Positions 9,101 to 42,500 of a DNA stretch of 64,000 nt are shown here, piece after piece. Each line of letters opens with the position of its first letter. Within the stretch, counting starts at the first letter, position 1. The notes beneath the pieces were generated by a model, which saw only the letters and a program-made list of their open reading frames with translations, did not search any database and was not told the DNA's origin. The translations under genes were made by a program, and so were the position numbers. This stretch comes from Siphonodentalium dalli (Eukaryota; Mollusca; Scaphopoda; Gadilida; Siphonodentaliidae). The stretch covers positions 128,543,990 through 128,607,989 of the forward strand of contig CP136067.1 in NCBI GenBank assembly GCA_032622095.1, in the 5' to 3' direction.

Positions 9101-12100
9101 GACAACGAACACTAAAACACATTCGCCAAGCCCGAGTAACAATTAATAAAAACAGATTTGCCTGTCGCAATGCTTCGGCGATGACCGTGACGTATAGCGG
9201 ACTAATACCGTTTTCTTTCTGTGTGCATTTCTATATCAACCCGTTTACACTAGTCTGCGTGTAGATCTGTGTACAGTACTATAGCAATGTAAATGCACCC
9301 TAAGAATCTGAATTGTTTCATGATTTTTCTTCATTTTGTTTCTAATTTCAGACAGTTCAAGTCAGGTGGAGGCTACTTTTAACCGACGTTATGTGCGACA
9401 GAAGTTAGAATATGGATTGGGTCGGATATGGCACGACGTACAACAGAAAGTAAAAGTGTTCATTCTCAGCACGGATCTAACGGATTATAAACTGGAAGAA
9501 TTCATCAAAGTTCTTGATATAATACAGAGGTAAGGCCAAACAAATTCAAATTCCTGTTTCTAAGGTTTTAGGTAGCAATACACAATTTCTAGCAATTTTT
9601 TCCACCCTGGGAGGAGGTACTTTACTTCAAATCTATGCTGAGCCATGATCTTTGGCATAGGTTCCTTCAAACATATTTTATTTTAGACAGAAATGGTAGG
9701 TTTAAACAAATGTCTGTATCTAAGCTACTTCGTACAATATGTCACTGAGTTATGCCCCTTGGTTTGCACATACAAAACTCTCAATTTTACCCATTTTTAT
9801 ACGCCTGTTTGAGAAAATGGCCATGTCCATCCATCTGTCTAGCTATCTGTCCATCCCTTAGCAGTTTTGGTTTCTGGATGATGACTTTAGTTTGGGTTAT
9901 TTTATCAGAACTAAATTTGGATGTGAGTTTCCAGACCAAATTTGAATTTTGAATTTGGGTTTTTTCCGATTAAATTGTACTGACTTACGGCTCTTTTCGA
10001 CTTAGAATTTTCAATATTTGAGGTTTCCGGATGATAACTTTAGTTTTTATTATATCGGAACCAAAAACAAGTTAATATTTTAACTTGTCTTGTGATATTT
10101 ACCATATTTACTACTTTACAGAATGATAGAGATTGGAGAAGAGTTCTGCGGCAGTAAATCTGAGGCTCTACAAGATTCTATCAAACAGCAAAGTCTTAAT
10201 TATTTCAAGCATCATCACAGGTAGGATATCATAGAATAGTCACCAAGCATCATCACAGGTAGGATATCATAGAATAGTCACCAAGCATCATCACAGGTAG
10301 GATATCATAGAATAGTCACCAAGCATCATAACAGGTAGGATATCATAGAATAGTCACCAAGCATCATCACAGGTAGGATATCATAGAATAGTCACCAAGC
10401 ATCATCACAGGTAGGATATCATAGAATAGTCACCAAGCATCATCACAGGTAGGATATCATAGAATAGTCACCAAGCATCATCACATGTAGGATATCATAG
10501 AATAGTCACCAAGCATCATCACAGGTAGGATATCATAGAATAGTCACCAAGCATCATCACAGGTAGGATATCATAGAATAGTCACCAAGCATCATCACAT
10601 GTAGGATATCATAGAATAGTCAGCAAGCATCATCACAGGTAGGATATCATAGAATAGTCACCAAGCATCATCACAGGTAGGATATCATAGAATAGTCACC
10701 AAGCATCATCACAGGTAGGATATCATAGAATAGTCACCAAGCATCATCACAGGTAGGATATCATAGAATAGTCACCAAGCATCATCACAGGTAGGATATC
10801 ATAGAATAGTCACCAAGCATCATCACAGGTAGGATATCATAGAATAGTCACCAAGCATCATCACAGGTAGGATATCATAGAATAGTCACCAAGCATCATC
10901 ACAGGTAGGATATCATAGAATAGTCACCAAGCATCATCACAGGTAGGATATCATAGAATAGTCAGCAAGCATCATCACAGGTAGGATATCATAGAATAGT
11001 CACCAAGCATCATCACAGGTAGGATATCATAGAATAGTCACCAAGCATCATCACAGGTAGGATATCATAGAATAGTCACCAAGCATCATCACAGGTAGGA
11101 TATCATAGAATAGCCACCAAGCATCATCACATGTAGGATATCATAGAATAGTCACCAAGCATCATCACATGTAGGATATCATAGAATAGTCAGCAAGCAT
11201 CATCACAGGTAGGATATCATAGAATAGTCACCAAGCATCATCACAGGTAGGATATCATAGAATAGTCACCAAGCATCATCACAGGTAGGATATCATAGAA
11301 TAGTCACCAAGCATCATCACAGGTAGGATATCATAGAATAGTCACCAAGCATCATCACAGGTAGGATATCATAGAATAGTCACCAAGCATCATCACAGGT
11401 AGGATATCATAGAATAGCCACCAAGCATCATCACATGTAGGATATCATAGAATAGTCACCAAGCATCATCACAGGTAGGATATCATAGAATAGTCACCAA
11501 GCATCATCACAGGTAGGATATCATAGAATAGTCACCAAGCATCATCACAGGTAGGATATCATAGAATAGCCACCAAGCATCATCACATGTAGGATATCAT
11601 AGAATAGTCACCAAGCATCATCACATGTAGGATATCATAGAATAGTCAGCAAGCATCATCACAGGTAGGATATCATAGAATAGTCACCAAGCATCATCAC
11701 AGGTAGGATATCATAGAATAGTCACCAAGCATCATCACAGGTAGGATATCATAGAATAGTCACCAAGCATCATCACAGGTAGGATATCATAGAATAGTCA
11801 CCAAGCATCATCACAGGTAGGATATCATAGAATAGTCACCAAGCATCATCACAGGTAGGATATCATAGAATAGTCACCAAGCATCATCACAGGTAGGATA
11901 TCATAGAATAGTCAGCAAGCATCATCACAGGTAGGATATCATAGAATAGTCACCAAGCATCATCACAGGTAGGATATCATAGAATAGTCACCAAGCATCA
12001 TCACAGGTAGGATATCATAGAATAGTCACCAAGCATCATCACAGGTAGGATATCATAGAATAGCCACCAAGCATCATCACATGTAGGATATCATAGAATA

Positions 12101-15100
12101 GTCACCAAGCATCATCACAGGTAGGATATCATAGAATAGTCACCAAGCATCATCACAGGTAGGATATCATAGAATAGTCACCAAGCATCATCACAGGTAG
12201 GATATCATAGAATAGTCACCAAGCATCATCACATGTAGGATATCATAGAATAGTCACCAAGCATCATCACAGGTAGGATATCATAGAATAGTCACCAAGC
12301 ATCATCACAGGTAGGATATCATAGAATAGTCACCAAGCATCATCACATGTAGGATATCATAGAATAGTCACCAAGCATCATCACAGGTAGGATATCATAG
12401 AATAGTCACCAAGCATCACCACAGGTAGGATATCATAGAATAGTCACCAAGCATCATCACAGGTAGGATATCATAGAATAGTCACCAAGCATCATCACAG
12501 GTAGGATATCATAGAATAGCCACCAAGCATCATCACATGTAGGATATCATAGAATAGTCACCAAGCATCATCACAGGTAGGATATCATAGAATAGTCACC
12601 AAGCATCATCACAGGTAGGATATCATAGAATAGTCACCAAGCATCATCACAGGTAGGATATCATAGAATAGTCACCAAGCATCATCACATGTAGGATATC
12701 ATAGAATAGTCACCAAGCATCATCACAGGTAGGATATCATAGAATAGTCACCAAGCATCATCACAGGTAGGATATCATAGAATAGTCACCAAGCATCATC
12801 ACAGGTAGGATATCATAGAATAGTCACCAAGCATCATCACAGGTAGGATATCATAGAATAGCCACCAAGCATCATCACATGTAGGATATCATAGAATAGT
12901 CACCAAGCATCATCACATGTAGGATATCATAGAATAGTCACCAAGCATCATCACAGGTAGGATATCATAGAATAGTCACCAAGCATCATCACAGGTAGGA
13001 TATCATAGAATAGTCACCAAGCATCATCACAGGTAGGATATCATAGAATAGCCACCAAGCATCATCACATGTAGGATATCATAGAATAGTCACCAAGCAT
13101 CATCACAGGTAGGATATCATAGAATAGTCACCAAGCATCATCACAGGTAGGATATCATAGAATAGTCACCAAGCATCATCACAGGTAGGATATCATAGAA
13201 TAGTCACCAAGCATCATCACAGGTAGGATATCATAGAATAGTCACCAAGCATCATCACATGTAGGATATCATAGAATAGTCACCAAGCATCATCACATGT
13301 AGGATATCATAGAATAGTCACCAAGCATCATCACAGGTAGGATATCATAGAATAGTCACCAAGCATCATCACAGGTAGGATATCATAGAATAGTCACCAA
13401 GCATCATCACAGGTAGGATATCATAGAATAGTCACCAAGCATCATCACAGGTAGGATATCATAGAATAGTCACCAAGCATCATCACAGGTAGGATATCAT
13501 AGAATAGTCACCAAGCATCATCACAGGTAGGATATCATAGAATAGTCACCACATTTAAAACATAAATTTAAAAGCAAAAAATTAATATGCCATTGTGTAT
13601 CTGCTGAACATTTCAATAATCAAACCTATAAATAGTGTGCCTGTCATTTGCAGAATGAGGTCCCCAGAGGGTGAATTTAGTGATGCTACCCCGCATAGCG
13701 GGCTAGCATCACCAAATTCACCCTCTGGGTATCTATTCTGCTTACACCTCAGCTGAATGAGGTTCCCAGAGGATGAATTTGGTGATGCTAGCCCGCTATG
13801 CGGGGTAGCGTCACTAAATTCACCCTCTGGGAACCTCATTCTGCAAATGACAGACACACTATTTCAAGGCTTGTCAATAATATTATCATTGGGGTTGATA
13901 GTGTCCTCCAGTAGTTAAATTACTAAGATACACAGGGAAGCAGGTTTCCTCCCTGCTAAGCAAGCCTGGATATAGTGTGCCTGTCATTTGCAGAATGAGG
14001 TCCCCAGAGGGTGAATTTAGTGACACTATCCCTCATTATGCATATTATCTTCTGCAAATTAGAGGATATAGAAACTGAACAGAAGGGAAAAAACAATGTT
14101 AATTTAAGACCATAGATGCTTCCCAGAGGATGAGGCCTAAGAAGAATTAGGTCCCCAGAGGATGAATTTGGTCATTAAATTCGCCATCTAGGGACCTAAT
14201 TCTGCAAATGACAGACACACTATTTAAGGGCTTGCTGATAAACATAGAATGGCGTTTTACGCAAAGAAGGTTAACTGGAATAAGTTATCTGAACAAGTTT
14301 CTTACCATGGGACGATGATCTCTGCATATAATGGTATGATTTCCCAGTGAAATTATCCCTCCTCATTGTATTTCTCTCGCCAAATAAAAGTGTGCATTGT
14401 GATATGGCAATATTTCTGCTGAAATTGGTTTTGAAATCAAAAGAAGAATTCTCATTGCTATGGTATTTGCCACAAGAAAATGACAACCTTTTTAATGCCT
14501 TATTTGGCAAATAGAAATTTGTGAAAAAATCATTCAAAATATCAAGAAGAAATTCTGTTTACAATTTTTAGGTTGAAAATGGATGAGTTAAAGACCTTTC
14601 TGGAGAACGAGTGTTGGGAGCTGTGTCCCGTCAAAGCTAACTTCAACATCCTACAGCTCATGGTCAGTACCCAACCTGGTAAAGACCGTGTGGTGAATGT
14701 CATGTCTGGAAATAACTCCCAAGTCTTCAAATAGTGTGTCTGTCATTTGCAGAATGTGATCCCCAGAGGGTGAATTTAGTGATGCTTTCCTGCGTGGTGG
14801 GCTAGCATCTCCAAATTCACCCTCTGGGAACCTCATTCTGCCGAGGCATTAACTGCTTTGGGAGACCTAGGATCAGATTGAAGTTTTAAGGCTGCCGCAC
14901 ACGATGCGATATATGCTGCACGATATTTGTCACAGGCCCTTACAGGTCAAATCGCAGCGTATGCGTTGGAAAATTGTACAACATTTTGTCGCACGATTGG
15001 CCCCGCAAGGAATCAAATAATTTTGATTTTCTACGATCGAGTCATACGATTTATTCGAAGTATCAGATTCAACTAATCTGATCACGCGGCGATCACATGT

Positions 15101-18100
15101 TTTCTTTCACAACAACATGACGTCCATACAGTGTCCTTCAAAGTCAGAGTAGCGGGATATTTTTGGACGGCGGAATACATTCATGCCTCTAGAATACAAC
15201 TACAATTGAAACAGGTGCATGGACTGGACGACAGCAAATTGGTGTCAAAATAATATCTTATTGTGAATTTGTGTGGGGAATTAAATCAGGTATAGTATAG
15301 GGCCTACTAGTCTATAGAACTACAAACACTTGTAATATTAATATTTATTGGAAATTAGTATTTTATATCTGTGATAAATACAAATATAGACCTATACATA
15401 TAATCTATATACCACGTTAATAATACAGTAACCCACTGCATTCACAAGAAAGTAAACAACCAGATTGTACGATCCGATCGTATCATGTGCGGTGGTCTAC
15501 TGTAAGTGATAAAACAGAAGTCGCACGACTAAAATCGTACCGTGTGCGCAAACAGATCTTACGTCGCAAGCGTCTGCGACAAATATCGTGCAACAAATAT
15601 CGCATCGTGTGCGGCGGGCTTTAGCCAGTTGCTGTTGGTGATATTCACCCATTAGTCACCTTGATTATGAATTTTATCTTCTGCAAATTTAGGGTATATA
15701 GAAACTGAACAGAAGGGGAAATAGCAACAAAAAAGTATGTTAATTTGAGGCTATAGATACTTCCCAGAAGATGAGGCCTAAGCAGAATGAGGTCGCCAGA
15801 GGGTGAATTTAGTGATGCTAGCCAGCTGTGGAAAAGGTATGGAAAATGATTTTTAAAATAGGAGTGGGAACCCTGTTAAGTGGCAATGATGGAATAAATG
15901 ATCAATCAAATAAGGACCAATATTGAAAATATTAGTTTGCTTTTCTGTATAGTAAGACAGGTATTAAATGAATTTTACAATAAATTGTGACAGCTTTTTA
16001 TTACAGGAATTCCGCTTTATGAGGCACTGGTCATCAACATCAGAAAAACTACCATCAGGAGAAAGCATAGAAACGATAACAGATAACACATCTGATATCG
16101 TAAATTATTTCGAGACATTTATTGATGAAGGAAACCCGTTTGACATCAAAGTGGACGACGAGGAAGCAGAGGACGTATTTGGTGACGGGGTGAGTATCAA
16201 TTTACATATGAGATGTTTTTTTTTAATTTTGATAACATTTAACCCTTTCATGATTGGAGCTGAGCTGGTGTAGTATTAAAGATCCTGTGCCAATGCATTC
16301 TCTTAGATATGCAAGTCTCACATCAGGAGCGTCACATGTATAAGAGAATGCACTGACTTACAAGGTCAGTGTAAATATTGTTAGGCCTCCTATTGGAGAC
16401 TCGCATATATAAGGGAATACATTGGCACAGGGTTTTCACAAAATATCAGGAAGCTCCAGTCATGGAAGGGTTAACCCTTTCTATACTAAATGGGTTCCCC
16501 CAGTTAGTTAAAAAGTATACATCAGAGTGGTCTATTATTGATTTGCAGAGATTTACTTGTAATAGAATTAGACAACAAATTTATAACTAAAAGTACAGAA
16601 GGAGTCCTATTTATGGAGGGAAATCTTCAGATAATAAGTTCAACCTATGGTCATTTGTTGAACTTATTACTTGAACATTTCCTATGTGATAACTACTCAT
16701 CAATGATGCTTTAGTATTGAAAGGGTTAAACTTTTTATCTGAACATTTCCTATGGGATAACTACTCATCAATGATGCTTTAGTATTGAAAGGGTTAAACT
16801 TATTATCTGAACATTTCCTGTGTGATAACTACTCATCAATGATGCTTTAGTATTGAAAGGGTTAAACTTATTATCTGAACATTTCCTATGGGATAACTAC
16901 TCATCAATGATGCTTTAGTATTGAAAGGGTTAAACTTATTATCTGAACATTTCCTATGGAATAACTACTCATCAATGATGCTTTAGTATTGAAAGGGTTA
17001 AACTTATTATCTGAACATTTCCTATGGGATAACTACTCATCAATGATGCTTTAGTATAGACAGGGTTAAACTTATTATCTGAACAATTCATATGGGATAA
17101 CTACTCATCAATGATGCTTTAGTATAGACAGTGTTAAACTTATTATCTGAACATTTCCTATGGGATAACTACTCATCAATGATGCTTTAGTATAGACAGG
17201 GTTAAACTTATTATCTGAACATTTCATATGGGATAACTACTCATCAATGATGCTTTAGTATAGACAGGGTTAAACTTATTATCTGAACATTTCATATGGG
17301 ATAACTACTCATCAATGATGCTTTAGTATAGACAGGGTTAAACTTATTATCTGAACATTTCCTATGGGATAACTACTCATCAATGATGCTTTAGTATAGA
17401 CAGGGTTAAACTTATTATCTGAACATTTCCTCGTGTGTAACTACTCATCAATGATGCTTTAGTATAGACAGGGTTAAACTTTTTATCTGAACATTTCATA
17501 TGGGATAACTACTCATCAATGATGCTTTAGTATAGACAGGGTTAAACTTATTATCTGAACATTTCCTCGTGTGTAACTACTCATCAATGATGCTTTAGTA
17601 TAGACAGGGTTAAACTTATTATCTGAACATTTCCTCGTGTGTAACTACTCATCAATGATGCTTTAGTATAGACAGGGTTAAACTTATTATTTGAACATTT
17701 CCTATGGGATAACTACTCATCAATGATGCTTTAGTATAGACAGGGTTAAACTTATTATCTGAACATTTCCTCGTGTGTAACTACTCATCAATGATGCTTT
17801 AGTATAGACAGGGTTAAACTTATTATTTGAACATTTCATATGGGATAACTACTCATCAATGATGCTTTAGTATAGACAGGGTTAAACTTATGATCTGAAC
17901 ATTTCCTCGTGTGTAACTACTCATCAATGATGCTTTAGTATAGACAGGGTTAAACTTATTATCTGAACATTTCATATGGGATAACTACTCATCAATGATG
18001 CTTTAGTATAGACAGTGTTAAACTTATTTTCTGAACATTTCCTATGGGATAACTACTCATCAATGATGCTTTAGTATAGACAGGGTTAAACTTATTATCT

Positions 18101-21100
18101 GAACATTTCATATGGGATAACTACTCATCAATGATGCTTTAGTATAGACAGGGTTAAACTTATTATCTGAACATTTCATATGGGATAACTACTCATCAAT
18201 GATGCTTTAGTATAGACAGGGTTAAACTTATTATCTGAACATTTCCTATGGGATAACTACTCATCAATGATGCTTTAGTATAGACAGGGTTAAACTTATT
18301 ATCTGAACATTTCCTCGTGTGTAACTACTCATCAATGATGGTTTAGTATAGACAGGGTTAAACTTTTTATCTGAACATTTCATATGGGATAACTACTCAT
18401 CAATGATGCTTTAGTATAGACAGGGTTAAACTTATGATCTGAACATTTCCTCGTGTGTAACTACTCATCAATGATGCTTTAGTATAGACAGGGTTAAACT
18501 TATTATCTGAACATTTCATATGGGATAACTACTCATCAATGATGCTTTAGTATAGACAGTGTTAAACTTATTATCTGAACATTTCCTATGGGATAACTAC
18601 TCATCAATGATGCTTTAGTATAGACAGGGTTCAACTTATTATCTGAACATTTCATATGGGATAACTACTCATCAATGATGCTTTAGTATAGACAGGGTTA
18701 AACTTATTATCTGAACATTTCATATGGGATAACTACTCATCAATGATGCTTTAGTATAGACAGGGTTAAACTTATTATCTGAACATTTCCTATGGGATAA
18801 CTACTCATCAATGATGCTTTAGTATAGACAGGGTTAAACTTATTATCTGAACATTTCCTCGTGTGTAACTACTCATCAATGATGCTTTAGTATAGACAGG
18901 GTTAAACTTTTTATCTGAACATTTCATATGGGATAACTACTCATCAATGATGCTTTAGTATAGACAGGGTTAAACTTATTATCTGAACATTTCCTCGTGT
19001 GTAACTACTCATCAATGATGCTTTAGTATAGACAGGGTTAAACTTTTTATCTGAACATTTCATATGGGATAACTACTCATCAATGATGCTTTAGTATAGA
19101 CAGGGTTAAACTTATTATCTGAACATTTCCTATGGAATAACTACTCATCAATGATGCTTTAGTATAGACAGTGTTAAACTTATTATCTGAACATTTCCTA
19201 TGGGGTCACTACTCATCAATGATGCTTTAGTATTGAAAGGGTTAAACTTATTATCTGAATATTTCATATGGGATAACTACTCGTCAATGATGCTTTAGTA
19301 TTGAAAGGGATAAACTTATTATCTGAACATTTCCTATGGAATAACTACTCATCAATGATGCTTTAGTATAGACAGTGTTAAACTTATGATCTGAACATTT
19401 CCTATGGGGTCACTACTCATCAATGATGCTTTAGAATAGAAAGGGTTAAACTTATTATCTGAACATTTCCTGTGTGATAACTACTCATCAATGATGCTTT
19501 AGTATAGGAAAGGTTAAACTTATTATCTGAACATTTCCTATGGGATAACTACTCATCAATGATGCTTTAGTATAGAAAGGGTTAAACTTAGTATCTGAAC
19601 ATTTCATATGGGATAACTTCTCATCAATGATGCTTTAGTATAGAAAGGGTTAAACTTTTTATCTGAACATTTCATATGGGATAACTACTCATCAATGATG
19701 CTTTAGTATAGACAGGGTTAAACTTTTTATCTGAACATTTCATATGGGATAACTACTCATCAATGATGCTTTAGTATATAAAGGTTAAACTTATTATCTG
19801 AACATTTCCTGTGTGATAACTACTCATCAATGATGCTTTAGTATAGAAAGGGTTAAACTTATTATCTGAACATTTCCTGTGTGATAACTACTCATCAATG
19901 ATGCTTCAGTATAGGAAAGGTTAAACTTATTATCTGAACATTTCCTATGGGATAACTACTCATCAATGATGCTTTAGTATTGAAAGGGTTAAACTTATTA
20001 TCTGAACATTTCATATGGGATAACTACTCATCAATGATGCTTTAGTATAGAAAGGGTTAAACTTATTATCTGAACATTTCCTGTGGGATAACTACTCATC
20101 AATGATGCTTTAGTATAGGAAAGGTTAAACTTATTATCTGAACATTTCCTATGGGATAACTACTCATCAATGATGCTTTAGTATAGAAAGGGTTAAACTT
20201 ATTATCTGAACATTTCATATGGGATAACTACTCATCAATGATGCTTTAGTATAGAAAGGGTTAAACTTATTATCTGAACATTTCATATGGGATAACTACT
20301 CATCAACTATGCTTTAGTATAGAAAGGGTTAAACTTATTATTTGAACATTTCATATGGGATAACTACTCATCAACGATGCTTTAGTATAGAAAGCGTTAA
20401 ACTTATTATCTGAACATTAAAGGTTTTATAGGGTATCATGCTCAATGTTAATTGTTTGCCAGGGTTTCCAATATTTAATAAATGAGTTTTTCAGTGAGAA
20501 TATAAAATCATTTCATAAATCAATTTCAGAGAATGGTATGATATTTTGTCCCCTAAAAGCCTGTAGTTCTCTATCACGCAATTGATTCCTTGCTGACTAT
20601 CAACACATTTTCCATGGCCCCGAGATGCCACTTACGCTGTTGAGGAAACTGTTAAAATTTGCAATTTATTTTTAATGTCCGACTTCAGTAAATTCATTAA
20701 AACATTATTATGCCATGAAATAATCCTGAACAACTTTCAACAGCTTACAGTTTCCTAAAATTGTAAAAATCAAGAATGTTATGAGTTGTTTTCCCACAAA
20801 CATGTACCACTGCATACATACAAACAAACTTTTGGGGTAAATTTGCAAATTAAATTACTGTATACACCCATCAGTAAGCCCATCCCTGAGGATAAGCCCA
20901 TCTATATTTTTGCTCTAAAAAAAATAATGGGGTGGTCCCTGAAGATAAGCCCACCCCCATTTTTAGAACTTAGAGGGCGAGTAGACATTGATGTCAGGTT
21001 AACATACCATTACTCCAGCTAATTTCCATTACAAACTCATTTAACCCTTTACCCAACAGAAGGGCCCTGTGCCAATGCATTCTCTTATATATGCGAGTCG

Positions 21101-24100
21101 ACCATAGGTCGCCTCGCATATATAAGAGAATGCATTGGCTTAACACATTAAAAATTATAAAATTGTTAAAATGGTAAAAAGTGTTAAAAAAAGATTTTAT
21201 TTAGGCCAATGCATTCTCTTATATATGCGAGGCGACCTATGGTCGACTCGCATATATAAGAGAATGCATTGGCACAGGGCATAACTGTAACTATCACAAT
21301 GTGGTCAAGGAGCCGGTTCCAATGATATCCATATTTGTATGGTTCTATTGAGACAGACCGAAGATATTTTAGGCTGTTGAAGCTTTAATTGGCCGGTTTT
21401 GGCCGGTTTGTTGGGTAAAGGGATAATACTGCGTGCCCCATTCTGTTTCACAAAATGATGTTTAACAATATATAAGATGATCTTTGTGTCTTTGTGTCTT
21501 TTAAATATCTATCGGACATAATAAAACACAAAACAAAGTATTTTTATTAAATAAAATAATATACATCATGATTCATATAAAACACGACATTAGATTAGCA
21601 CAACGAATACAAACTTAGATTTATCATATGGGGGTCCTCAAAGGTAAGCCCAGTCCTAAGTTTTTGTGTCAAAACATTCATTGCGCACCAGGCTCACTGA
21701 TGGGTGTATACAGTAAGGTGCATGAATGTGTTGATTATGCAACACACCTCTTTGTGTTACCTATTTTGAATAACTCTCTATGTATAATATAATTTAAAGT
21801 GATGTGAAACACTCCGGTTCAGTGATCAAATATAAATGGTAAAATTGAGAATAATCTTTTTACAAAAAGTAGATCCAAATTGACAACACACACCGTCATT
21901 CTTATATATGTACTAAATGCAATTACTCTCGATGGCGAAATCGTTTTCGTTAGTTTATCGCCGATAGATGCGTCCCGAATCGAGTAGTAAATATTTATAA
22001 TTGAGCGTAGTTCTGACGATGTTTTCTATGGAGTGGTACTGTCGATTTGCTTCAAATTTTCGGCTATGTTAGTAGAAGGTTACATTCCTCCAGTTGTCAT
22101 AGCGCCTGAATAGTAACTTATCAGTTTCACCCACCCGAACAAGTACATAATATGTCTTTAAGTTCGAACAAAAAGTTATAAAATCATCTGTGATGCTGTT
22201 GTACCAAGATATAGTTTTCAGACATGATATAGAAGTAAAATACTTATAAACTTTAACTAAAGGGCTCGGACGAAAAGAACTCGGACAGCGATTCAGACAT
22301 TCCAGATGAACTGAAACATGATTACATCGATGAGATTACGGGTGAAACCAAAAATTACAGGTGAGTGCAAAGATGATTACATGTACATCAAAGAGATTAT
22401 TGGTGAAAAGAATATTACAAGTTAGCTTAAACACTAAAACATCACTGAATTTCAGGTTAACTCTTTTGATGCCATACATCACCACATACAAACCCCAAAT
22501 CTCCCCCCCCCCCCCCCTGAACTTACACCAAATATAAATACTTGCACATTACTCTGGCTCTGATTGTACCAACTGACTTCTAGTCTTGACCCCGTATCAT
22601 CACAATATTGTCCACTTGCATCCGATTTATATCAAGACAATAAATTGACAACCAAAGTGTGCCTGTCTTCACAGAGTTACGTATCTTACGTATCTTTGCA
22701 AATAAGCGCGATGGGCATTGTATGGATAATTAACATAAATGTGTGTTTTTTTGTGTCAAAAGTGTGGTACATACAGTGATGCCCTAAATAATCGACTCCT
22801 TAACCACAGCAAAATTATGGGTAATTTTTCAGGATTTAGTCGGAAATATGGCTTGTTGCCATTCATCGGAAAGCTCTCACTGAGAGCTTTCCAATGAATG
22901 GCAACAAGCCATATATCCGACTAAATCCTGAAAAATTACCCATAATTCTGCTGTGGTTATGGAGTCGATTATTTAGGGCATTACTGTAACAGAAGAAATA
23001 TTCTGTGTTCTGAGCCTTGATGTATTTTGCGACAGCAGATTTCATGATAGTCCAAGTCTTCTCGTACTAAAGCCGGCTAAGATATTGGGATGGAGGTGCC
23101 GGTCTTTAGTCCGAATTCGTCCCGTATAGTCTCTTATGACACGACTTAAGCGTTATTGACCCGCTCAAATAAAACCACAATTTATATGAAATAAAATATC
23201 ACAATTGCGACAATAAACGGATATTTTCAACAGAAGACATGCTATTTGATCTGAAACCCACATCAGTTGTGAATTGAAAGCGGTAATTTAATGCGAAAAG
23301 AGACATTTATCGCAATGTTTACAATTTTTTTAAAGTATCCGAACTCAGTTGACCTCGCGAACTGTGTTCGGCATTTTCCGTTGAAAATATTCCGTAGATT
23401 TTGGACAAACAACGCAAATTACGATGAATTCTCCATTGTAATCGTAATTATGTGTGTCAATAAATAAAAAATAAATAGATTAATTAAACATTGGAGATAT
23501 AAATGTAATACATTGAATAAATTACGGGAATTATAACCCTCTCAAAGTTTAAAACAGTGTAAACACAACGAGCATTAGAATAAATAATATGCCTTATATG
23601 GTGCTACCTTTCATCCACATTTGGTGGACTTCCGCGAAATTAAGATATATACTAAGCGAACAGGGCAATATATTGCTCTTGTTATGCACACAAAAAATCA
23701 AACAAAATTTGTATACATTTTGAACCTTAAGTTTGAAAAGTCCCACTGAAACGGAAGAACTATATTTCGAAACTGTGTGATTCGGTTCTCCGATTATTTT
23801 ATCAACACACAAATCAAAATGCACATCACACGCATGGCAAGTCAGACATAAGAGTTCTAATTTGCTCCAATTTTGACAAGTTGCTTGCGAAAATTGTCAA
23901 CAAAACTACCGTTCTGATCCTCCATTATGTCATTAAGTTTTTAGTGCGGGAATTGTTCTCAAAGCACATAGGAAACTGGACTTTGGGGCGATCGGTTTTC
24001 GCCATATAGAAACGGAAACTAGAATACCCAGCGGACAATGCCGGAATTCTTCGGAACCTGACTTCGGCTTTCAGTTAAGTAAACAAAATATAAAAACAGC

Positions 24101-27100
24101 GATGTTGGTGACAATCAACCGGAATATTCTATGCGTAATGTAACATGAAAGTTAGATTATTATACACCATTATGACCATAAGATGTCTCTCTTTCCGATG
24201 TATATAGCATCATGTATTGATTTATTAGGTAAATCGAGTAAAATACAACACAGATTCCCGCCACAGATCGTGGGCGTAAGTCGTGTCATAAGAGACTATA
24301 CGGGACGAACTCGGACTAAAGACCGGCACCTCCATCCCAATATCTTAGCCGGCTTTAGTACGAGAAGACTTGGACTAATTTCATGATAATCATGGTTATA
24401 AGTCCATTGTATCTATCTGACAATAAAATCTTACCTGTGTTCTCTTATTTCAGGCAAATTCGTCGAATGCATTCCAGAAGGCGGAGTTCATCGAAGCAGG
24501 CGCCCATTGTTACAAACACGACTCTCAATGTACTCCGAGTTATAGGTGGGTGGCAATTTATTTATATCCATTATAAAGTTAACACTTTGATTTCTGAATA
24601 GAATCTCACATTTAACTTCTGATGTATACACAGGAAAGGTCCACTCTTCACTTGTAGGAGTGTTCAAATAAAATATGGCTTTTTTTTTGTAAAATACCAA
24701 AGCACCATTTTTCAGAAAAGCAAAGATCCCCAAAAAAAGTAACTGTTTTGGAGGAAATATAGCCAAGCAGCGTCCTTTTATTCCAAATAAGGTTTTTAGC
24801 TCACCTGAGATGAAGTCTCCGGTGGAGCTATAGTCATCACTCCACGTCCGTCCATCCGTCCGTCTGTCGAGCCGTCCATCCGTCCATCAACAATTCTTGA
24901 AACATCTTCTTCGGAACCATAAGACCGAATGGGTTCATATTTGGTGTGGATGTTCCCTAGGTGATTCACATTCAGATTTGTTCAAATGAGGTCACTGGGT
25001 CAAATAGTTACGAAAGCAGGGCCATAACTCTATTTCTCCATAGTAATTCTTAGAATGACTTCTTCTCAAGAACCATTGGGCCGATTTAGCTTATATTTGG
25101 TATGGAGGGTCCTTGTGTGACTGGGGTTCAGATTTGTTCAAATGGGGTCACTGGGTCAAATAGGGGCAGAGCCAGGGACACAACTAAAAAAAAAAGATTG
25201 AAGTCCTTGTTCAATTAAAAAAAAGTTATCTTCTCTAGAACCATTTGGCATATTTAGCATACATTTTGGTATAGAGAGTCCACGGGTGACTGGGATTCAG
25301 ATTTGTTGAAATGGGTTCACCAGGTCAAATAAGGGTGCGACCAGGGACATAACTCTTCCCCGATAGTAAATCTTAAAATGGCTCCTCCTCAAGAGCCATC
25401 AGTCCTATTTAGCTTATATGTATTAACTGGTATGGAGGGTCCTTGTGTTACTTGGGAATGGGTTACAGTTTTGTTAAAATGGGTTCGACCAATCAAAAAT
25501 GTCATTTGGTGTATATGGCCTATGGAGAGTTGGGATCAAAATTTGTTTGAATGGGGTCCACCATTAAAAAAGGGGGGCATGTCAGGTTGTAACTTTGCCA
25601 CAGTTAGGAAAGCTTGAGGTATCAGTTGTAAAATTCCAACATATGCAAAGGAATTTTACGAACTTGGGAGTATGTTTGCTTCAGTTGGGAGGGAGCAGAC
25701 TATGGACTATGTGGGGTTGGGGGATCTGGACCATATTTTAAGGTGGACACCCCACTGCTCAACTGAGACCCTCTAGGCAACGTCCATCTTTAGGACTACT
25801 TGTTTTTAAGTGAATTTGACAAGTACTAACTCTTATGGTCTTCCGATTCCCAGTCTTTGCAGTCTGGTGAGCGTCTCCACAGTCATTGACTGTCTTGTTT
25901 TTAAAGGTACTCAATCCGATTCGAAGGTCCCCATATCACGAGATTCCAACAACAACAACAACATTTTTTGAAATGCCGCTTAAGTTATCAGAATCGATTT
26001 ATTGCCCCAAAATGATGCTAACCAGTCGACTATAGTATAAAATTGCCCAAAACTATCAACATTTTGTTCAACGAAATTTGGCCGGATTGCACAATATCTA
26101 ACACACAAAGCCACTTGATTTATAGTTATCCGTTTTCATCCGCAATTTTGATCCGAGATCGTCGGCTTGATGAATATTTGCCTGGCCACCAAAAATTACA
26201 TATCTCAGGAAATAATTGATATTGATATCTGATCAATCAGTTCCGAAGCCAATGAAATAGTAATTTGGGAGCATTAAGTCGGATTATGCATCTTTAATCT
26301 AACAAATTTTGTTATAAATTATCCTATTTCAAGTAAGACAATTTATTTACTATTTAATTTTCTTGTTTCTAAAAAGCCAATATTTCAAAGAGGCCACCTT
26401 TTTTGGATGGTTTTTATGCCAATTTAATTTATCTTGTACAGGTAAATACATGCAGATGATCAGTGTGTTGAAGCCAATAGCGTTTGATGTCATCACCTGC
26501 ATATCTCAACTGTTTGATTACTACCTCTATACAGTAAGTAAAAATTATACCTGTATATCTCATTAAAAGGGGACCCAAGACACTCACAGTGGGTAAATGT
26601 GGAAAAAATATATAAATCTGTAAAAACATCCCCACTATTAGAGGGAACCACAGCATTTACAGTGGGTAAATGTGGAAAAATAAGTCTGTAAAAACATCAC
26701 CACGAAGATGAACATGGAAAATGGTGTTTTGGGACCACGGCCCTTGGAAACAGAAAATTGATTTTGATTAGCCTAAATGGAATTTTATAACATCAGTATT
26801 TGCTAAACAAAATGTGACATAAACCAGACTTATATATAGCAAACAATATTATTTTATTCTTGAAAAATAATTTATTTTCACCTGTGCATATATACTTGTC
26901 GATTAAACAGACATGTATCATTCAAGCTTCCAAATTTTGTCTACGTTATTTGGAAGGAGGTATAATATAGGTTGACAAATACACAAAATATTCATAATAC
27001 CAGCTTCATATGCTCTGAAAAATACTTTCCATGGTCACAGCCATTTTCCAGCTGTTTTTCATTAACAGAAGTGAAACAAACGCTCTTTATTTCTTCCATA

Positions 27101-27541
27101 TCAGGAATAGACTAACTCGGAACGCTCTTTTCTGTTCCATGCCATGAATATGGCTGTTTGTTGGGACCCAAACACTGTGTTCAAAGTTGTCTTTTTTATG
27201 ACTTTAATGCATCTTTCCTGGGACATATAATGCCCGTAGAAAGTAATTCAATTATTTATCGACCTATTTCGATAACGGGAAAAATTCCAAAGCGAATATT
27301 GTTAGGTGTATTTTGGAACACAAACCGCCATGTGGCTTTAAAATGTTTTTGACATCAAAAGTTAATCATATTGTTTACTCCAATTATGCCTAGAAACAGG
27401 GAATATCATTTTGAAGGAATACAATACCTTGTTTGAAGGCTTCAGTTAATATTTGTCACTCACTCAGCTCTTGTTGATCCTAATGTTTTTTTTTTTCAGG
27501 TACATGTATTCTTCTCAGACAATGTGAGTATTGATTTTTAT

Positions 27542-27581
<40 letters not shown>

Positions 27582-30500: not shown

Positions 30501-33500
30501 ATAAAGGGAGATAATATTTCTTCCAAAATTGAAAATTGTGGCATCAAATTGCTTTCGCTGGTTAGTTTGAGATGCCATATCTCCTATATTTTGTGGAGAT
30601 TTGTGCTGAAACTTTAAACACGATCAGAGAACGGCTTGCTGTATGTGCATGCCTTTTGTTATGCCAGAGTTTCCTTTCCCTTTAAAACTTATTTAACTTA
30701 ATTTTAATTCATAAGATTTTGCTAACTTTGAATATGGATTTTAGAAACCAATTAAACAATACATGTTTATTAATTTCAGGTCAATGGTAGAATCAACAGT
30801 CGTCTCCAGATGACACTGCAACGAATACAAGAAAATATGATACTAGAGCACAACGGACCGGGACCGAGTGGGGTAGAAGTAAGTGAACATATCTATGAAT
30901 TTACTTAAGATATATCTGTGTAAATCCCAGTAAAACATATTTAAAAAAAAAACTCTCAGGGAGAGCTTTCCGATGAATGGCAACAAGCCATATTTCCGAC
31001 TAAATCCTGAAAAGTTACCCATAATTCTGCTGTAGTTAAAGAGTCGATTACTTAGGGCATTACTGTATATAGATTGGTGCAAGATTTGAACATTGGTTTA
31101 ACGATAATGACACCAAGCCTGTTTATAGTGTGTCTGTCAATTGCAGAATGAGGACCCCAGAGGGTGAATTTAGTGATGCTATCCCACATAGCAGGCTAGC
31201 ATCACTAAATACACCCTCTGGGGACCTCATTCTTTGTTTGTAACATATTTATTGTGTCTCCCAATATATACAATATTGACAATTAAATGATGATGAGGAT
31301 GTAATGTATGGTGAAGGAGTAACCACTGGGGATTGGACCACAAGTTATGCAACTTAGATTATAAAGCTCCTCTCCACAGAGGGTGAATTTAGTGATGGTT
31401 TCCCACACAGCGGGCTAGCATCACCAAATTCACCCTCTGGGTACCTCATTCTGCATGGCCTCATCTGCTATGAGAGACATAGACTCAGATTGAAGTTTCC
31501 AAATGGTGAAACCTCCATCTCGGCAAAGTTTCTTTATTATTATTCTATAGAAACTTAGATTCTATTTCTTTTTTAGTTTAGTTTCTCTATATCCCCAAAT
31601 TGTCAGACGACACATTGCATGATCGAGGTTCCCAATGGGTGTACATAACAATATTCACCATTTGGGAACTTCAATCTGAGTCTATGTCTCCCATAGCAGT
31701 TGAGGCCATGCAGAATGAGGTCCCAAGAAGGTGAATTTGGTGATGCTAGCCTGCAATGCGGGATACCGTCACTAAATTCACCCTCTGGGGACCTCAATCT
31801 GCTAATGATAGGCACACTAAAATCAGGCTTGTTTAACTAGACACCAAGTCAGTTAGGTAACCTGGTAGACCAGCACTGCTTTGTAGCTCAATTTTTGACT
31901 GCACCAATCTATATGAATTATTTCATGTTCTATCAGAAAATGAACAACAATATGCTATCTTGACTTCACCCTCTGGGACCTCATTCTGCTTAGGCTTCAT
32001 CTTCTGGGAAGTATCTATAGTCTCAAATTAACTTTAACATATGAGATTTCCAGAGGGTGAATTTGGTGATGCTAGCCTGCTGTTTGGGATAGCATTACTA
32101 AATTCACCCTCAGTGGAACTCATTCTACAAATGACACACTATTTGACATTACGTTATTTCAAAATATTATTCCATTTCACGTTGTCATTTTATGACTTGA
32201 ATTCCAGTTATATCTAGGGGTGGCAGGAAGATGGCCCATTTGGCCATGCCGCTCCTGTACAATATACCTATGCTCACTTTTGAATGTTGTATTGTTACCA
32301 TATGTCTATAAATAGTGTACAAATAAATACTACTACACTACTAAAATAAGATATGTCCAAGCCTTGAAATAGTGTGCCTGTCATTTGCAGAATGAGGTCC
32401 CTAGAGGGTGAATTTAGTGATGCTACCCCGCATAGCTGGCTAGCATCACCAAATTCACCCTCTGGAGACCTCATTCTGCTTACACCTCAGCAGAATGAGG
32501 TTCCCAGAGGGTGAATTTGGTGATGCTAGCCTGCTATGCGGGATAGCATCACTAAATTCACCCTCTGGGGACCTCATTCTGCAAATGACAGACACACTAT
32601 TTCAAGGCTTGGATATGTCATGGCATGCTTTTTGTGTTTTTCAGGAGCGAATACCCCGCCCACACATATCACATATGGTTGACATGTCTGACCCAAATAA
32701 GCTTTATGGGCTTGCCGAGCGAATTGTAGCTGCGGAATCATTGTAAGTACCTTGTAAAATCATAAGCCCTTGGCAGGGGACCTTATTCTGCTTAGGCCTC
32801 ATCTTCTGTGGAAAGTTTCTTTATTATAAAATTTCTATAGAAACTTCTTCACATAGATTCTATTTTTTTTAGGCTAGTTTCTCAATATCCCCAAATTGGC
32901 AGATGACACATTGCATAATCGAGGTTCCCAATGGGTGTACATCACAATATTCGCCATTTGGGAACTTCAATCTGAGTCTGTGTCTCCCATGACAACTCTG
33001 TTCATTATGCCTTAGTTTGTCCTAAGCCATCCATCAGTGGTGAAGCTGCTTCAATTGCTATTTAACCCTTTCATGAGGTTCGTGACAGGAGCTGTGCTGG
33101 TGTAGCATTAAAGATCATATGCCAGTGCAATCTCTTATATATGAGTCTACCATAGTGAGCCTCACATATATAAGGGAATGCACTGGCTTACACGGTCAAG
33201 GTAAATATCTTTAGGTCAATATATTCTCTTATATATATGAGGCTCGCTATAGGAGACTAGCATATATAAGAGAATGCATTGGCACAGGGTTTTCGCAAAA
33301 TTTCAGGAAGCTCCAGTCATGGAACGCTTAACCCTTTCAGTGCCAAGTCCGATTTTTGTATCAACCCATATTTCCTTGATCACTTTTCAAATTTATTGAT
33401 TATAATAATGTGATACATTGATGGAAAGTACTCTTAGAGCTCTTTCCATCAATGTATCACATTATTATAATCAATAAATTTGAAAAATGATCAAGGAAAT

Positions 33501-36500
33501 ATGGGTTGATAAAAAAATCGGACTTGGCACTGAAAGGGTTAAGCATGTATTGGTGTGAAGTGAAACTCTAATTGAGCCAATTAGAACATTGTCACTATTT
33601 ATTATGAGAACAAAGTTAACCCTTTTGGAGCCCCAGACAGAGAACAATCCACTGATGACTGTTGTCTACTTGGTTCTCTGTGGGGCTCCATACAGGAGTG
33701 TTATTTATTATTTTGAACGTTCCAGGGTGTTCCTGGCAGGGCAATTAGAGTGTATCCAGCCACATTTAGAGAATTTAATTCCGTCGAACAGAAAAGCATT
33801 TCTCCAGCAGTTCTATTTTCAGGTGAGTTATTGTATATCTTCTTGTAAAGGCTCACCCCCATTCATACCCCATTCGGACTGTTGAGTTATTGTATCTCCT
33901 TGTAAAAGGCTCACCCCCATTCATACCCCATTCATACTGGTGAGTTATTGTATCTCCTTGTAAAAGGCTCACCCCATTCATACCCCATTCATATTGGTGA
34001 GTTATTGTATTTCCTTGTAAAAGGCTCACCCATTCATACCCCAGTCATACTGGTGAGTTATTGTATCTCCTTGTAAAAGGCTCACCCCATTCATACTGGT
34101 GAGTTATTGTATCTCCTTGTAAAAGGCTCACCCCATTCATACCCCATTCATATTGGTGAGTTATTGTATTTCCTTGTAAAAGGCTCACACCCATTCATAC
34201 CCCAGTCATACTGGTGAGTTATTGTATCTTCTTGTAAAAGGCTCACACCATTCATACCGGATTCTTCCATTAAGTTCTGAGTATACATTGAATGGTCTAT
34301 TAATTTTTAGGTGTATACATTTCAGAAATGGATGTTGACTTGGATGCATTCCATGTAGTATGGATGCAAGTTGGCCTGACATCTTGTGTGGGACACGAAA
34401 GCATAATGCCCTCAAAAATTCATTGCCATTTGTTTATCTGCGAAAATTTGACCCGAATTAAACTCTTCACTTCTAATGACTTTATGACTTTGAGTGCTGC
34501 GCCGATGACGTTATGGCTATTTTCCAGTGGAAAAATATAATAGGAATATAACGAAACCCATAAAACTGATTCAGTTGAAAGGCTATTATCATTCACAATC
34601 GTGGAACGTCATACACACACTATGGGGACGGATAGCACATATCATGACATTTTACGTCCGTACTCAATGTTGACGTATAGCAGCCAAGTGGTAAAAGAGT
34701 CAATATTTACATTTATGCAGAGGTCAGACATTTTTTGAAAGATCGGCGTGACTAATTTTCAGTTAAATGCTACATTCTTTCAGTATGCAGTATTCCTGGA
34801 TACTAACTTATCAGCTTGATTCACTGAACTAATCAGATCAGGCACAACCTGTATTTAACTATTATAGTCATATATATAACTGTTATAATTGAATATGATC
34901 GTACCAAGAACACCATTTGCCTGTTTTTGTGGAAAGTATGGGATTATGCATCGCAATGCGCAGCACTCGTAACAACATTACAGCAAATGAAAATTCTCCC
35001 GATAAAATTATTTTTACAACCTTTTGCACATACATGTATAGATAAGACAGGAAACGATAAATTTTACAGTGACTCATGGTTTTTGTAAATGTACTGATGG
35101 TAGATTTGCCATACTTGATGCTGAGCTCTTGTCAGCTTTGGTGAAGACTGGGGATCTTTAACTTTCTGGTCTAAATTCAACTCTGCGCTGTCATTTTCAT
35201 GATGACTGATTCACTGTGATATGGTGATTAACCATTTCATGACGGGAGCTGTGCTGGTGCAGCATTAAGGACCCTGTGCCAGTGCGTTCACTTAATTATG
35301 TGAGTCCCCCATAGGGAGCCTTGCATATGTAAGAGATGCACAAGCTTACAAGGTCACGGTAAATATTGTTATGCCAATGTATTTTCCTATATGCAAGATT
35401 CTTTATGGGAGACTCGCATATATAAGAGAATGCACTGGGTTTCGGCAAAATTTATGGAAGATCCAGTCATGAAAGAGTTAACACTGTTATGGTGACAATA
35501 CAGCACCATCGTTCACTTGTAGTGAATTAGTGTTTAGTTTCGACAGTGGTTGTGAAAACAAGGGTATTAATGCATTGTTTGGAATAGAAAGTCACCATTG
35601 TTTGGAATAGAAAGGTTCCGGTTTATAGAGGTAATTTTCATTAAGAATGAACTTGAGTGAATTTGGGACCGGAAAATTTGTTTTATATGGAGAGGGATTC
35701 GGTTTATAGACTATAGAGGGTCCATTTTTTTTTTTAAAGAGGTTTTACTGTACAACATTTTTATCCTAATCTCTCTTCAGACTGTAAAAATGGCAGCGGA
35801 GTTACGAACTCCTGTGTACAAGATTGTTTCCACAAATTGTATCAACTACGATTCAGTTCTACAGTATATCACACCGGTCAAGTGGGATATAAAAGAAATC
35901 ATGTCTCAACACAACCAATACGTCGATGTTCTGTTAAAGGTGGGTATACAATCTTGTCTCAACATAGCCAATATGATGATATTCTCTTAAAGGTAAATTG
36001 ATGAGTATAAGATACCGCTCACTACTGGCATTACCTACATAAAGCCAGCAGGACTCAAAATATGGTGCTGGACATTTGCAGAATGAGGTCCCCAGAGGGT
36101 GAATTTAGTGATGGGGTAGCATCACTAAATTCACCCTCTGGGACCTCATTCTGCTTAGGCCTCATCTTCTCTGGAAAGTATCTTTATTATCAAATTAACA
36201 AGTTATTTAGTTTCTTTAGAAACTTCCTCAGAAAGTTTATTTTTTTCTTCTTTTTTTTTTAGTTTCTCTATATCCCCAAATTGGCATAATCGAGGTGCGC
36301 AATGGCTGCACTTCACCATCTGGGATACCTGTGTCTAGGTCTCCCATAGCAAATGAGGCCATGCAGAATGAGGTCCCCAGAGGGTGAATTTAGTAATGCT
36401 AGCCCCCTGCGTGGGGTATTATCACTAAATTCACCCTCTGGGGACCTCATTATGCAAATGTCCAGTACCATATTTTGAGGCCTGAGTCTGCTATATAAAT

Positions 36501-39500: not shown

Positions 39501-42500
39501 AAATTAATGAATGATTTTTTGATAATTAAATTAAATTCTCTATTATTTTATATAAATTATTTATATAGATCACAAATAGCATGATGCTTTAATTATTAAA
39601 ATTCATAAAACCATCAAATTTGATGAAATCGTATGTTGAGATGCATTCACATTCCATAAATAGATGTATGTACCCTTTTTGTGAGAGCAGTCCCTTCAGC
39701 TGAATTTAGTGACGATAACCCGCTATGTGAGGTAGCATCACTAAATTCACCTCATTCTGCAAATGACCAGCACCATATATTGAGGCCTGTGTGATATGTT
39801 TGCAGGTATTCATCAGCAAGGAAGTGCAGCAGTGAAGGCAGAGCTTTAATGCAACTCGATTTCCAACAGTTCCTGTCTAAGCTCGAAAAGATTGTTGACA
39901 TAAGGTAGGTATTATTTATAAATTTAATCACAAGGTAGGTATTATTTATAAATTTAATCACAAGGTAGGTATTATTTATAAATTTAATCACAAGGTAGGT
40001 ATTATTTATAAATTTAATCATAAGCTGTCAATTCATGTAATACTATAAAATTAACCAGAAAGTTTGAAAATAAATCTACTATATAACGAGCGTATCTTCA
40101 AAGTTTTCAGTTATAAGTGCATAAACTTAAAGGGGTACTGTACACTAAATCCAGGCATGCATGGGACCATCTCCAATTATACTAATAATCAAGCCTTGAA
40201 ATAGTGTGCTTGTCATTTGCAGAATGAGGTCCCCAGAGGGTGAATTTAGTGATGCTACCCCGCATAGTGGGCTAGCATCACCAAATTCACCCTCTGGGGA
40301 CCTCATTCTGCTAACACCTCAGCAGAATGAGGTTCCCAGAGGGTGAATTTGGTGACGCTAGCCCACTATGCGGGGTAGCATCACTAAATTCACCCTCTGG
40401 GGACCTCATTCTGCAAATGACAGGCACACTATTTCAAGGCTTGACCATGTCCAATTATACTAATAATAAACAATATATGCAACAAATGAATGAATTTGAG
40501 CCATGGATTAGTGCAAAATACAAAATTGTGCTCTATGAACGATGCAAACAACATGGTAATTAAAATGAATATGAGTTAATGACATAGAAAACACGCGTGT
40601 ATTTTGCACTCAACCATAGCTCATATTCATTCATTTGTTGCATATATTCTGTTGACTATAAAAGGAGATGGTCCCATAAATGGCCGGATTTAGTGTACAG
40701 TCCCCCTTTAATAAAAACAAGAATGTTTTCTTAAATTACTTTTGATCATCGCTGAGGCCTTTTTTATTCAACCCTAAGTGAATTTCTGTTATAATATGAA
40801 TGTGAGCTCTAATATGTTTACACCAATTATATAATCAGGTATCTGTTCATGATTATATATTTACATACACCTAATGTCGCTTCCGATTTCCCCATAGCGT
40901 TACGGTAGACACGCCCTCTGATCAGTGTTCGCGCTGTCGGTAGCCAAATTAGCCAATGGCTAATCTTTTTCGAATTTGGCTAATACAAATTTCATTTGGC
41001 TAAAATTTTGGCTAAACTTTTGTTGACCCCCAAATGGAGACTGGAAGCATGAATTTTTGGCAAGTGGGTTTTCAATTCTGTGATGTGAACGATCTCGTCC
41101 GAAAACATCATATAAGTAAATGGGAATATATCGCCGACTGTACAAAGGGAAACCCGATCGCGGACAGTACAAAGGGAAACCCGTCACTCTGCACGAAACA
41201 GCAAAAGGTCATATCATTATTTTACATTTAATCCGCTAATCCCCCATTGTCTGTCTGGTCACTCACGGGGATCCTGCACAATGCATGTTTATGATGACAT
41301 TGTATTTATGACGGTCAAGGTTTATGAGCACCAAGTTTAAGACAATAGCTTAATCAGCCAAATGTGAATCACGACAGATATTTTGTGGCTATTTGTCGTC
41401 AATACCGATACATTCAAAATAATATGCATGCTTTTATGACAGATTGTAATTTGATAATGGCCTAACAATATTAAGTTATTAGTTTCCAGTTGTCACTTAG
41501 ATATTTTCGCAAGGATAATTAATATTTAATGATTTAAAAAAAGATATTGATATAAAACAAAAAAATAATGACATTAAGAAGGACAATCCCGAATTGCCTG
41601 CCCCCTAGGGTCCTGCGAATTGGAGATTTTGATCGAATCGAATATCGAATCGAATTCTGGAAATCGAATCGAATCGAATATCGAATCGAATATCGAATCG
41701 AATCATATCTGTGTGTTGCATTCTCAATTTGTGAAACGTTCTATCAACTACATGCACGAAGTTTCATCATAACTTATGTTGCGATGAACCGTCGTTTGCA
41801 ATACTATTAATTTCAAAAGATAATTGTCGAGAAAAAAAGGCAGATTTAAAAAAAACGTCCATGCGGCCGTCACGACGATTAATATATAACCACTAAACGG
41901 ATTATCAGAACTAAAATCACGCGAAATTTGTAAAGTTTGCATGTACATGCAAAATTTCAAATCGACATTCGGAATCACCCGTTGTTATAAACTTGAAGAT
42001 GCAACAACAGTCGCAGGGTAGCCTGATTATGTAGTGCTGGATGCTTCTTGGACAGATGATTCCATAGATGGGTCATTGTCCCAGATGCCTGCGATTTATA
42101 CACCAGGTTGCATTCATCTCACGTGTAAGTCCCTGCACTACCTGCAGCTTTATCATGTTTAAAATAAACATGAATAACGACGACATTTTGTCAAGTGTCA
42201 ATGAACGCTCCGATGCCAGGAACACGTGTTGTTTAAATTCTCAGCTATACTACATGATGCAGAATCTGAGACGGATAGACGGCAGATAATGCTAGCGGTT
42301 GCTCAGTCTCATAGCTATTATTATTCACGCGCATTGTCGGTCCATCAGTGATCTCCGAGCTTTTGGCTACCATGTTCAAAGCTAGAATTCAGGCGTATTT
42401 AGTAGTCCTATAGTGGCTAATTGCTGGTTATATTTATATTTAATATATATAATCGCGATGTACAATAAGAATTATAAGGTGCATATATACATAATTTTCT

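Follow-up and report, generated by a model that had tools for sequence, protein, structure and literature searches.

The last 20 exons of the gene for syndetin (VPS50/CCDC132) lie on the forward strand, at positions 3117-45601 of a 64,000-nucleotide stretch of the genome of the scaphopod mollusc Siphonodentalium dalli (contig CP136067.1, positions 128,543,990 to 128,607,989; hereafter the window), with the 5' part of the gene located beyond it. When spliced, these exons form an open frame of 744 amino acids, and the product matches the Pfam families Syndetin_C (E 4.9e-91) and Vps54_N (E 1.9e-51); no solved structure for syndetin was found at E up to 1. The model places 19 donors in the window, the number already given by the first-pass annotation of this DNA, which had described tandem copies of the exon-intron border at five of them. 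Six borders of the gene were found to be duplicated, namely five of the 19 donors and one acceptor.

Duplicated splice borders in syndetin

Donors were tested by the best local alignment between the segment from -40 to +20 around each donor and the 200 nt that follow. The donors of exons 6, 9, 15, 16 and 18 scored 35, 22, 18, 21 and 24, respectively, and the other 14 scored 7-13, so that exactly the five donors named earlier carry a tandem copy. Dinucleotide shuffles, made from window positions 1-45601 minus the two large arrays of that region, reached a score of at least 18 at 8 of approximately 76,000 positions (1e-4), with a top score of 20, and ungapped tandem diagonals scoring 16 numbered 120 in the real sequence vs none in two whole-window shuffles. 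The mirror-image test on the 20 acceptors (exons 1-20) detected a copy at exon 19 only (score 45, vs 7-13 elsewhere), a duplication that was absent from the earlier list.

The donor arrays, all on the forward strand, differ widely in size and state of preservation. Exon 6 (10122-10220 in the gene model) ends with 15 nt that form the exonic portion of a 38-bp unit, and this unit is repeated 88.1 times at 10206-13551 with 98% matches, as determined by Tandem Repeats Finder (TRF) and unit inspection. The exon 15 array (33822-34258; 7.8 copies of ~57 bp, 88% matches, likewise from TRF and unit inspection) has units that differ in length; GGTGAGT is retained in seven of its eight copies and lost from copy 2, and CAG precedes the GT in the first copy only, being replaced by CTG or TTG in the others. 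At exon 18 (39899-40024), TRF and unit inspection gave 4.1 copies of 30 bp with 98% matches, and all four donors read AAG/GTAGGT (the slash marks the border). The two remaining donors are simple pairs recovered by self-alignment: at exon 16 (35897-35941 and 35950-35994) the copies are offset by 53 bp and the second donor reads AAG/GTAAAT, and at exon 9 the original (22316-22365) is followed by a decayed copy (22379-22425) that lacks the donor GT, at an offset of 60-63 with indels. The copy numbers previously proposed (88, 2, about 8, 2 and 4) thus agree with these values, as do the periods of 38, 57, 53 and 30 bp; the period of about 55 bp given for exon 9 was slightly off, the present estimate being ~61 bp. 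The units are unrelated in sequence and 30 to ~61 bp long, and their state runs from 98% matches at one extreme to a decayed copy at the other, which supports the suggestion that the duplications were independent events of different ages.

The acceptor duplication of exon 19 (43895-44106, forward strand, offset 106 bp; acceptor test and self-alignment) includes the polypyrimidine tract, the AG and the beginning of the exon, 12 nt of which are missing from the pseudo-copy upstream. Use of the last acceptor yields the open frame; splicing to the upstream one would lengthen the mRNA by 106 nt, a number not divisible by three.

In the exon 6 array, the GT is present in all 88 units and AGGT in 71, the remaining 17 having a G>T change at -1. 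All 7 occurrences of variant unit 5 have variant unit 2 directly after them, against 1.1 expected (0 of 2000 permutations), which indicates that multi-unit blocks have been duplicated, in the manner of unequal exchange. Selection that keeps or eliminates the extra donors was also considered for this array and rejected, no clear signal being seen (5 of 38 positions are variable, the commonest being -1).

Probable tolerance of the copies and their likeness to mirages

We interpret the duplicated borders as neutral splice-border minisatellites ('mirages'), in which duplication and array growth are tolerated with the original outermost splice site still working, and we assign this reading a probability of about 0.68. 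Local tandem duplication, by slippage or end-joining, would copy short segments that happen to contain an exon-intron border, and some of the resulting pairs would then grow into arrays via block copying of units, a step for which the exon 6 array offers indirect evidence. If splicing still relies on the first donor or, at exon 19, on the last acceptor, the mRNA is unchanged because the copies leave with the intron, and such copies would be nearly neutral and could persist. The first donors do yield the intact syndetin frame. When the frame is read on into the intron, the codon that follows is a stop at exons 6, 9 and 18; at exon 16 the frame stays open for 16 codons and closes shortly before the second donor, and at exon 15 it stays open for 20, closing just within copy 2, which no longer has a donor. 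The earlier proposal that survivors are biased, the first donor keeping splicing correct, is therefore plausible from the coding frame, in which translation would stop immediately or at the latest on reaching copy 2, and it has been taken into the present reading. Strong donors may also tolerate identical competitors downstream by being recognised immediately upon transcription, as the correlation with U1 pairing within this gene (see below) would suggest.

A different cause of persistence would be selection for redundant donors, with extra copies raising U1 recruitment and exon splicing so that arrays are kept. The retention of GT in all 88 exon 6 units, of GGTGAGT in seven of eight at exon 15 and of the full donor in four of four at exon 18 is in line with this idea; however, intactness is expected of young arrays even without selection, the donor has been lost in copy 2 of exon 15 and in the exon 9 copy, and the -1 change in 17 of the 88 exon 6 units lowers the predicted U1 pairing from -10.7 to -4.1 kcal/mol. 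The duplicated donors are moreover already strong and least in need of help. We regard selection for redundancy as highly improbable.

The syndetin case adds a dense new example to the mirage repeats described before, the primary papers on which are reportedly Canestro 2002 and Zhuo 2007. In amphioxus, border-spanning repeats of the Adh3 gene were named mirages and similar structures were noted at other amphioxus loci, with units of 10-72 bp in Adh3 and 150-160 bp in the globins BflGb6 and BflGb9; the same source states that the 5' as well as the 3' border can be affected, that AG/GT occurs in many but not all units, that the repeats may explain intron gain and, on the basis of Adh3 data and globin RT-PCR (reverse-transcription polymerase chain reaction), that they are suggested to be harmless to regular splicing (PMC3087553). 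The 10-72 bp range given for Adh3 may mean that more than one array is present there too.

The syndetin repeats share several described features of mirages, being tandem, minisatellite-like and placed across an exon-intron border, at the 5' side in five of 19 donors and at the 3' side in one of 20 acceptors. The unit contains the border in each donor case, with 15 of 38 nt exonic at exon 6, 45 of 61 at exon 9, 43 of 53 at exon 16, 6 of 30 at exon 18 and a borderline 1 of 57 at exon 15, and AG/GT is found in many units (71 of 88 at exon 6, four of four at exon 18). Mirages are also characterised by unstable length among haplotypes or somatic cells; in the one haplotype analysed here, variant units moved jointly within the exon 6 array. 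Compared with the amphioxus cases as described, syndetin differs in having six affected borders in one gene and a single array of 88 copies, and regular splicing would follow here from the reading frame. The six borders of this conserved gene capture one kind of event at several ages, with donor copy numbers from 2 to 88, and the gene is a good natural test of how the cell chooses among identical donors.

A comparable single donor is known from human. Intron 7 of the coagulation factor VII gene (F7) contains highly homologous 37-bp repeats, the first of which holds the authentic donor, and reported usage is confined to the donor lying furthest upstream (PMC6627357). The first repeat holds the original donor in syndetin as well, its use being deduced from the frame; whereas the F7 passage describes one donor, syndetin has five, with unrelated units. 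Variable internal tandem repeats have also been described for human segmental-duplication genes, where some are located at exon-intron boundaries and can alter splicing (PMC2812944). Those repeats modify the introns or exons of recent paralogues; the syndetin first donors, in contrast, give an intact coding frame.

Intron gain through tandem duplication of AGGT-containing DNA goes back to Rogers 1989, with ATP2A1 and potato RdRp as cases (PMC4974935), and is also discussed in PMC2891723. The likeness lies in the tandem duplication of DNA that holds AG/GT, and the potato RdRp duplication, as presented there, covers the end of an intron together with the exon that follows, as does that of syndetin exon 19. 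However, unlike the intron gain of Rogers, in which a new intron arises between two copies in a former exon, the syndetin copies sit downstream of in-frame donors, inside existing introns of 1.96-4.35 kb, and no new intron between copies in a former exon was seen in the gene. As to the view of the first-pass annotation that this gene may show the raw material for new introns, what the arrays show is proto-splice-site amplification, one proposed source of new introns.

Excess at donors, the AG/GT junction and U1 pairing

For statistical purposes, 38 tandem-repeat rows in the gene gave 39 loci after one row (a 26-bp array together with the acceptor duplication) was split. Removal by hand of 21 dispersed or simple-sequence loci left 18, or 17 without the large array in intron 8, and the clearest loci (score at least 21, period up to 110) numbered 10 or 9. 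Against the five donor hits observed, random placement predicted 1.57 hits for all 39 loci (P(≥5) = 0.019), 0.59 for the 18 loci (P = 1.7e-4) and 0.25 for the 10 clearest (0 of 200,000 trials, p <5e-6), and, with placement restricted to unmasked sequence, 0.98 for the 17 loci (P = 0.002) and 0.40 for the 9 (P = 3e-5). An excess at donors within the gene is therefore observed on every locus count and is suggestive, its strength depending on the hand sorting.

This excess comes from a single gene that was picked post hoc, on account of its pattern, and ordinary intronic minisatellites of a repeat-rich genome might have been noticed simply because the gene is extreme. Thirty-three of the 39 loci touch no splice junction, and a P of 0.019 on the full list would be unremarkable for the most striking among thousands of genes; on the other side, the 9-10 clearest non-dispersed loci give P of 3e-5 or less, although these smaller counts rest on hand sorting. 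Chance combined with ascertainment is, in our estimate, very unlikely to account for the pattern. The window supplied no control gene among the ten ORFs (open reading frames) compared with Pfam, all of which failed to match at E 0.1; seven lie downstream of the gene, two are intronic and one shares the site of the last exon in a different frame.

By position, a downstream copy was detected at 259 of 6144 unmasked positions outside the donor arrays and the intron 8 array, vs five of 19 donors. With the two large arrays included, 20.6% of unmasked positions have a copy at score 18, a count dominated by two loci; as about a fifth of unmasked positions then carry a copy, five of 19 donors is not remarkable on that basis. 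Donors exceeded the acceptors of exons 2-20 by five of 19 to one of 19 (Fisher p = 0.09). Borders would also be subject to a detection bias, since a pair with one conserved exonic copy should decay at roughly half speed, a consideration relevant to exons 9 and 16 and hardly to exons 15 and 18. Part of the donor excess may accordingly stem from the choice of the gene by the first-pass annotation and from the longer survival of pairs in which one copy is exonic.

The junction motif itself was proposed earlier as a preferred start point for duplication. AG/GT is present at 12 of the 19 donors, including all five duplicated ones, and a downstream copy was found at five of these 12 vs 6 of 59 non-donor AGGT sites, the latter representing about three loci (Fisher p = 0.016), so that real donor status appears to matter more than the motif. 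Donor-like non-donor sites had a copy in 5 of 38 cases, vs five of 19 donors (Fisher p = 0.19), and on the minus strand none was seen at 37 AGGT or 33 donor-like sites. The border takes variable positions in the unit, with 1-45 exonic nt, and this variability, together with the clustering of non-donor AGGT copies, led to the rejection of a strict AGGT start-point model as stated. The proposal thus lacks support in its strict sense, AGGT as such not being shown to be a hotspot, and a regional preference for donors (five hits vs 0.25-1.6 expected) is suggestive.

The duplicated donors also stand out in their pairing with the U1 5' end, as predicted by the ViennaRNA duplex. Their mean of -12.0 kcal/mol compares with -8.3 kcal/mol for the others (exact subset p = 0.0008 among 19 donors and 0.0025 among the 12 AG/GT donors), the weakest of the five being donor 6 at -10.7. 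One explanation of the donor pattern would be a mutational hotspot, with tandem duplication favoured at strong 5' splice sites by, for instance, R-loops, pausing linked to U1 or conflicts between transcription and replication. The donor excess, the single duplicated acceptor, the difference between AG/GT donors and other AGGT sites, the better U1 pairing and the lack of copies at minus-strand sites are all in its favour. However, the breakpoint is not fixed relative to the donor, no copy accompanies donors 8 and 10 despite their strength, the comparisons with donor-like sites and with acceptors are not decisive (p = 0.19 and 0.09), and the case rests on one gene chosen post hoc; such a hotspot is on balance unlikely. 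The more specific claim, that strong U1 donors of this lineage are true tandem-duplication hotspots and that the stronger the donor, the likelier the downstream copying of its surroundings, is likewise unlikely. If true, it would link co-transcriptional splicing to local DNA instability and would feed splice-site evolution. The U1 link gives a simple prediction, that duplicated donors are strong donors, which is testable in any annotated genome with mirages. No link between border-spanning repeats and U1 strength appeared in titles or opening abstracts of the open-licence literature, which was surveyed in part and with no search aimed at U1 strength.

Several observations weigh against the preferred interpretation of neutral, tolerated mirages. 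Tolerance alone predicts no excess at donors, yet five were hit vs 0.25-1.6 expected. Duplicated donors in vitro often favour the downstream, intron-proximal site, the opposite of the usage proposed here. The U1 test was devised after the data had been seen, with n=5, and donors 8 (-12.3) and 10 (-10.9) match or exceed some of the duplicated donors and have no copy. Finally, higher-order periodicity in the exon 6 array was not significant, with a best lag of 25 units (permutation p = 0.07).

Other repeats in the gene and its introns

Intron 18, which precedes the duplicated acceptor, holds two further features. A 2063-bp element (40923-42985) has perfect 14-bp terminal inverted repeats CAGTGTTCGCGCTG, is flanked by 8-bp repeats CCTCTGAT at 40915 and 42986, and includes an ATCGA-rich stretch; we take it to be hAT-like. 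The 26-bp array (9.9 copies, 43624-43880) contains CAGGTATCT seven times, with no exon placed there in the gene model, and a single copy of CAGGTATCT occurs at ~40833, on the opposite side of the 2063-bp element.

The large array of intron 8 (55 copies of 68 bp, 16657-20418) lies away from splice sites and shares sequence with other places in the window. A 73-bp tandem duplication (26581-26703) begins 48 nt past donor 11, near the splice site without spanning it. Intron length was rejected as a driver of the arrays, array introns minus their arrays being compared with the rest (p = 0.22). A dispersed palindromic repeat, CCCCAGAGGGTGAATTTAGTGATG, occurs at 37 places in the 64 kb when up to 2 mismatches are allowed, for example at 32399-32570, and presumably resembles a miniature inverted-repeat transposable element. 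A 24-base dispersed repeat gave no exact match among viral or prokaryote contigs, and RNA searches returned neither an Rfam family at the gathering score nor a tRNA. Exon 12 is a 24-nt microexon (27500-27523) that encodes VHVFFSDN.

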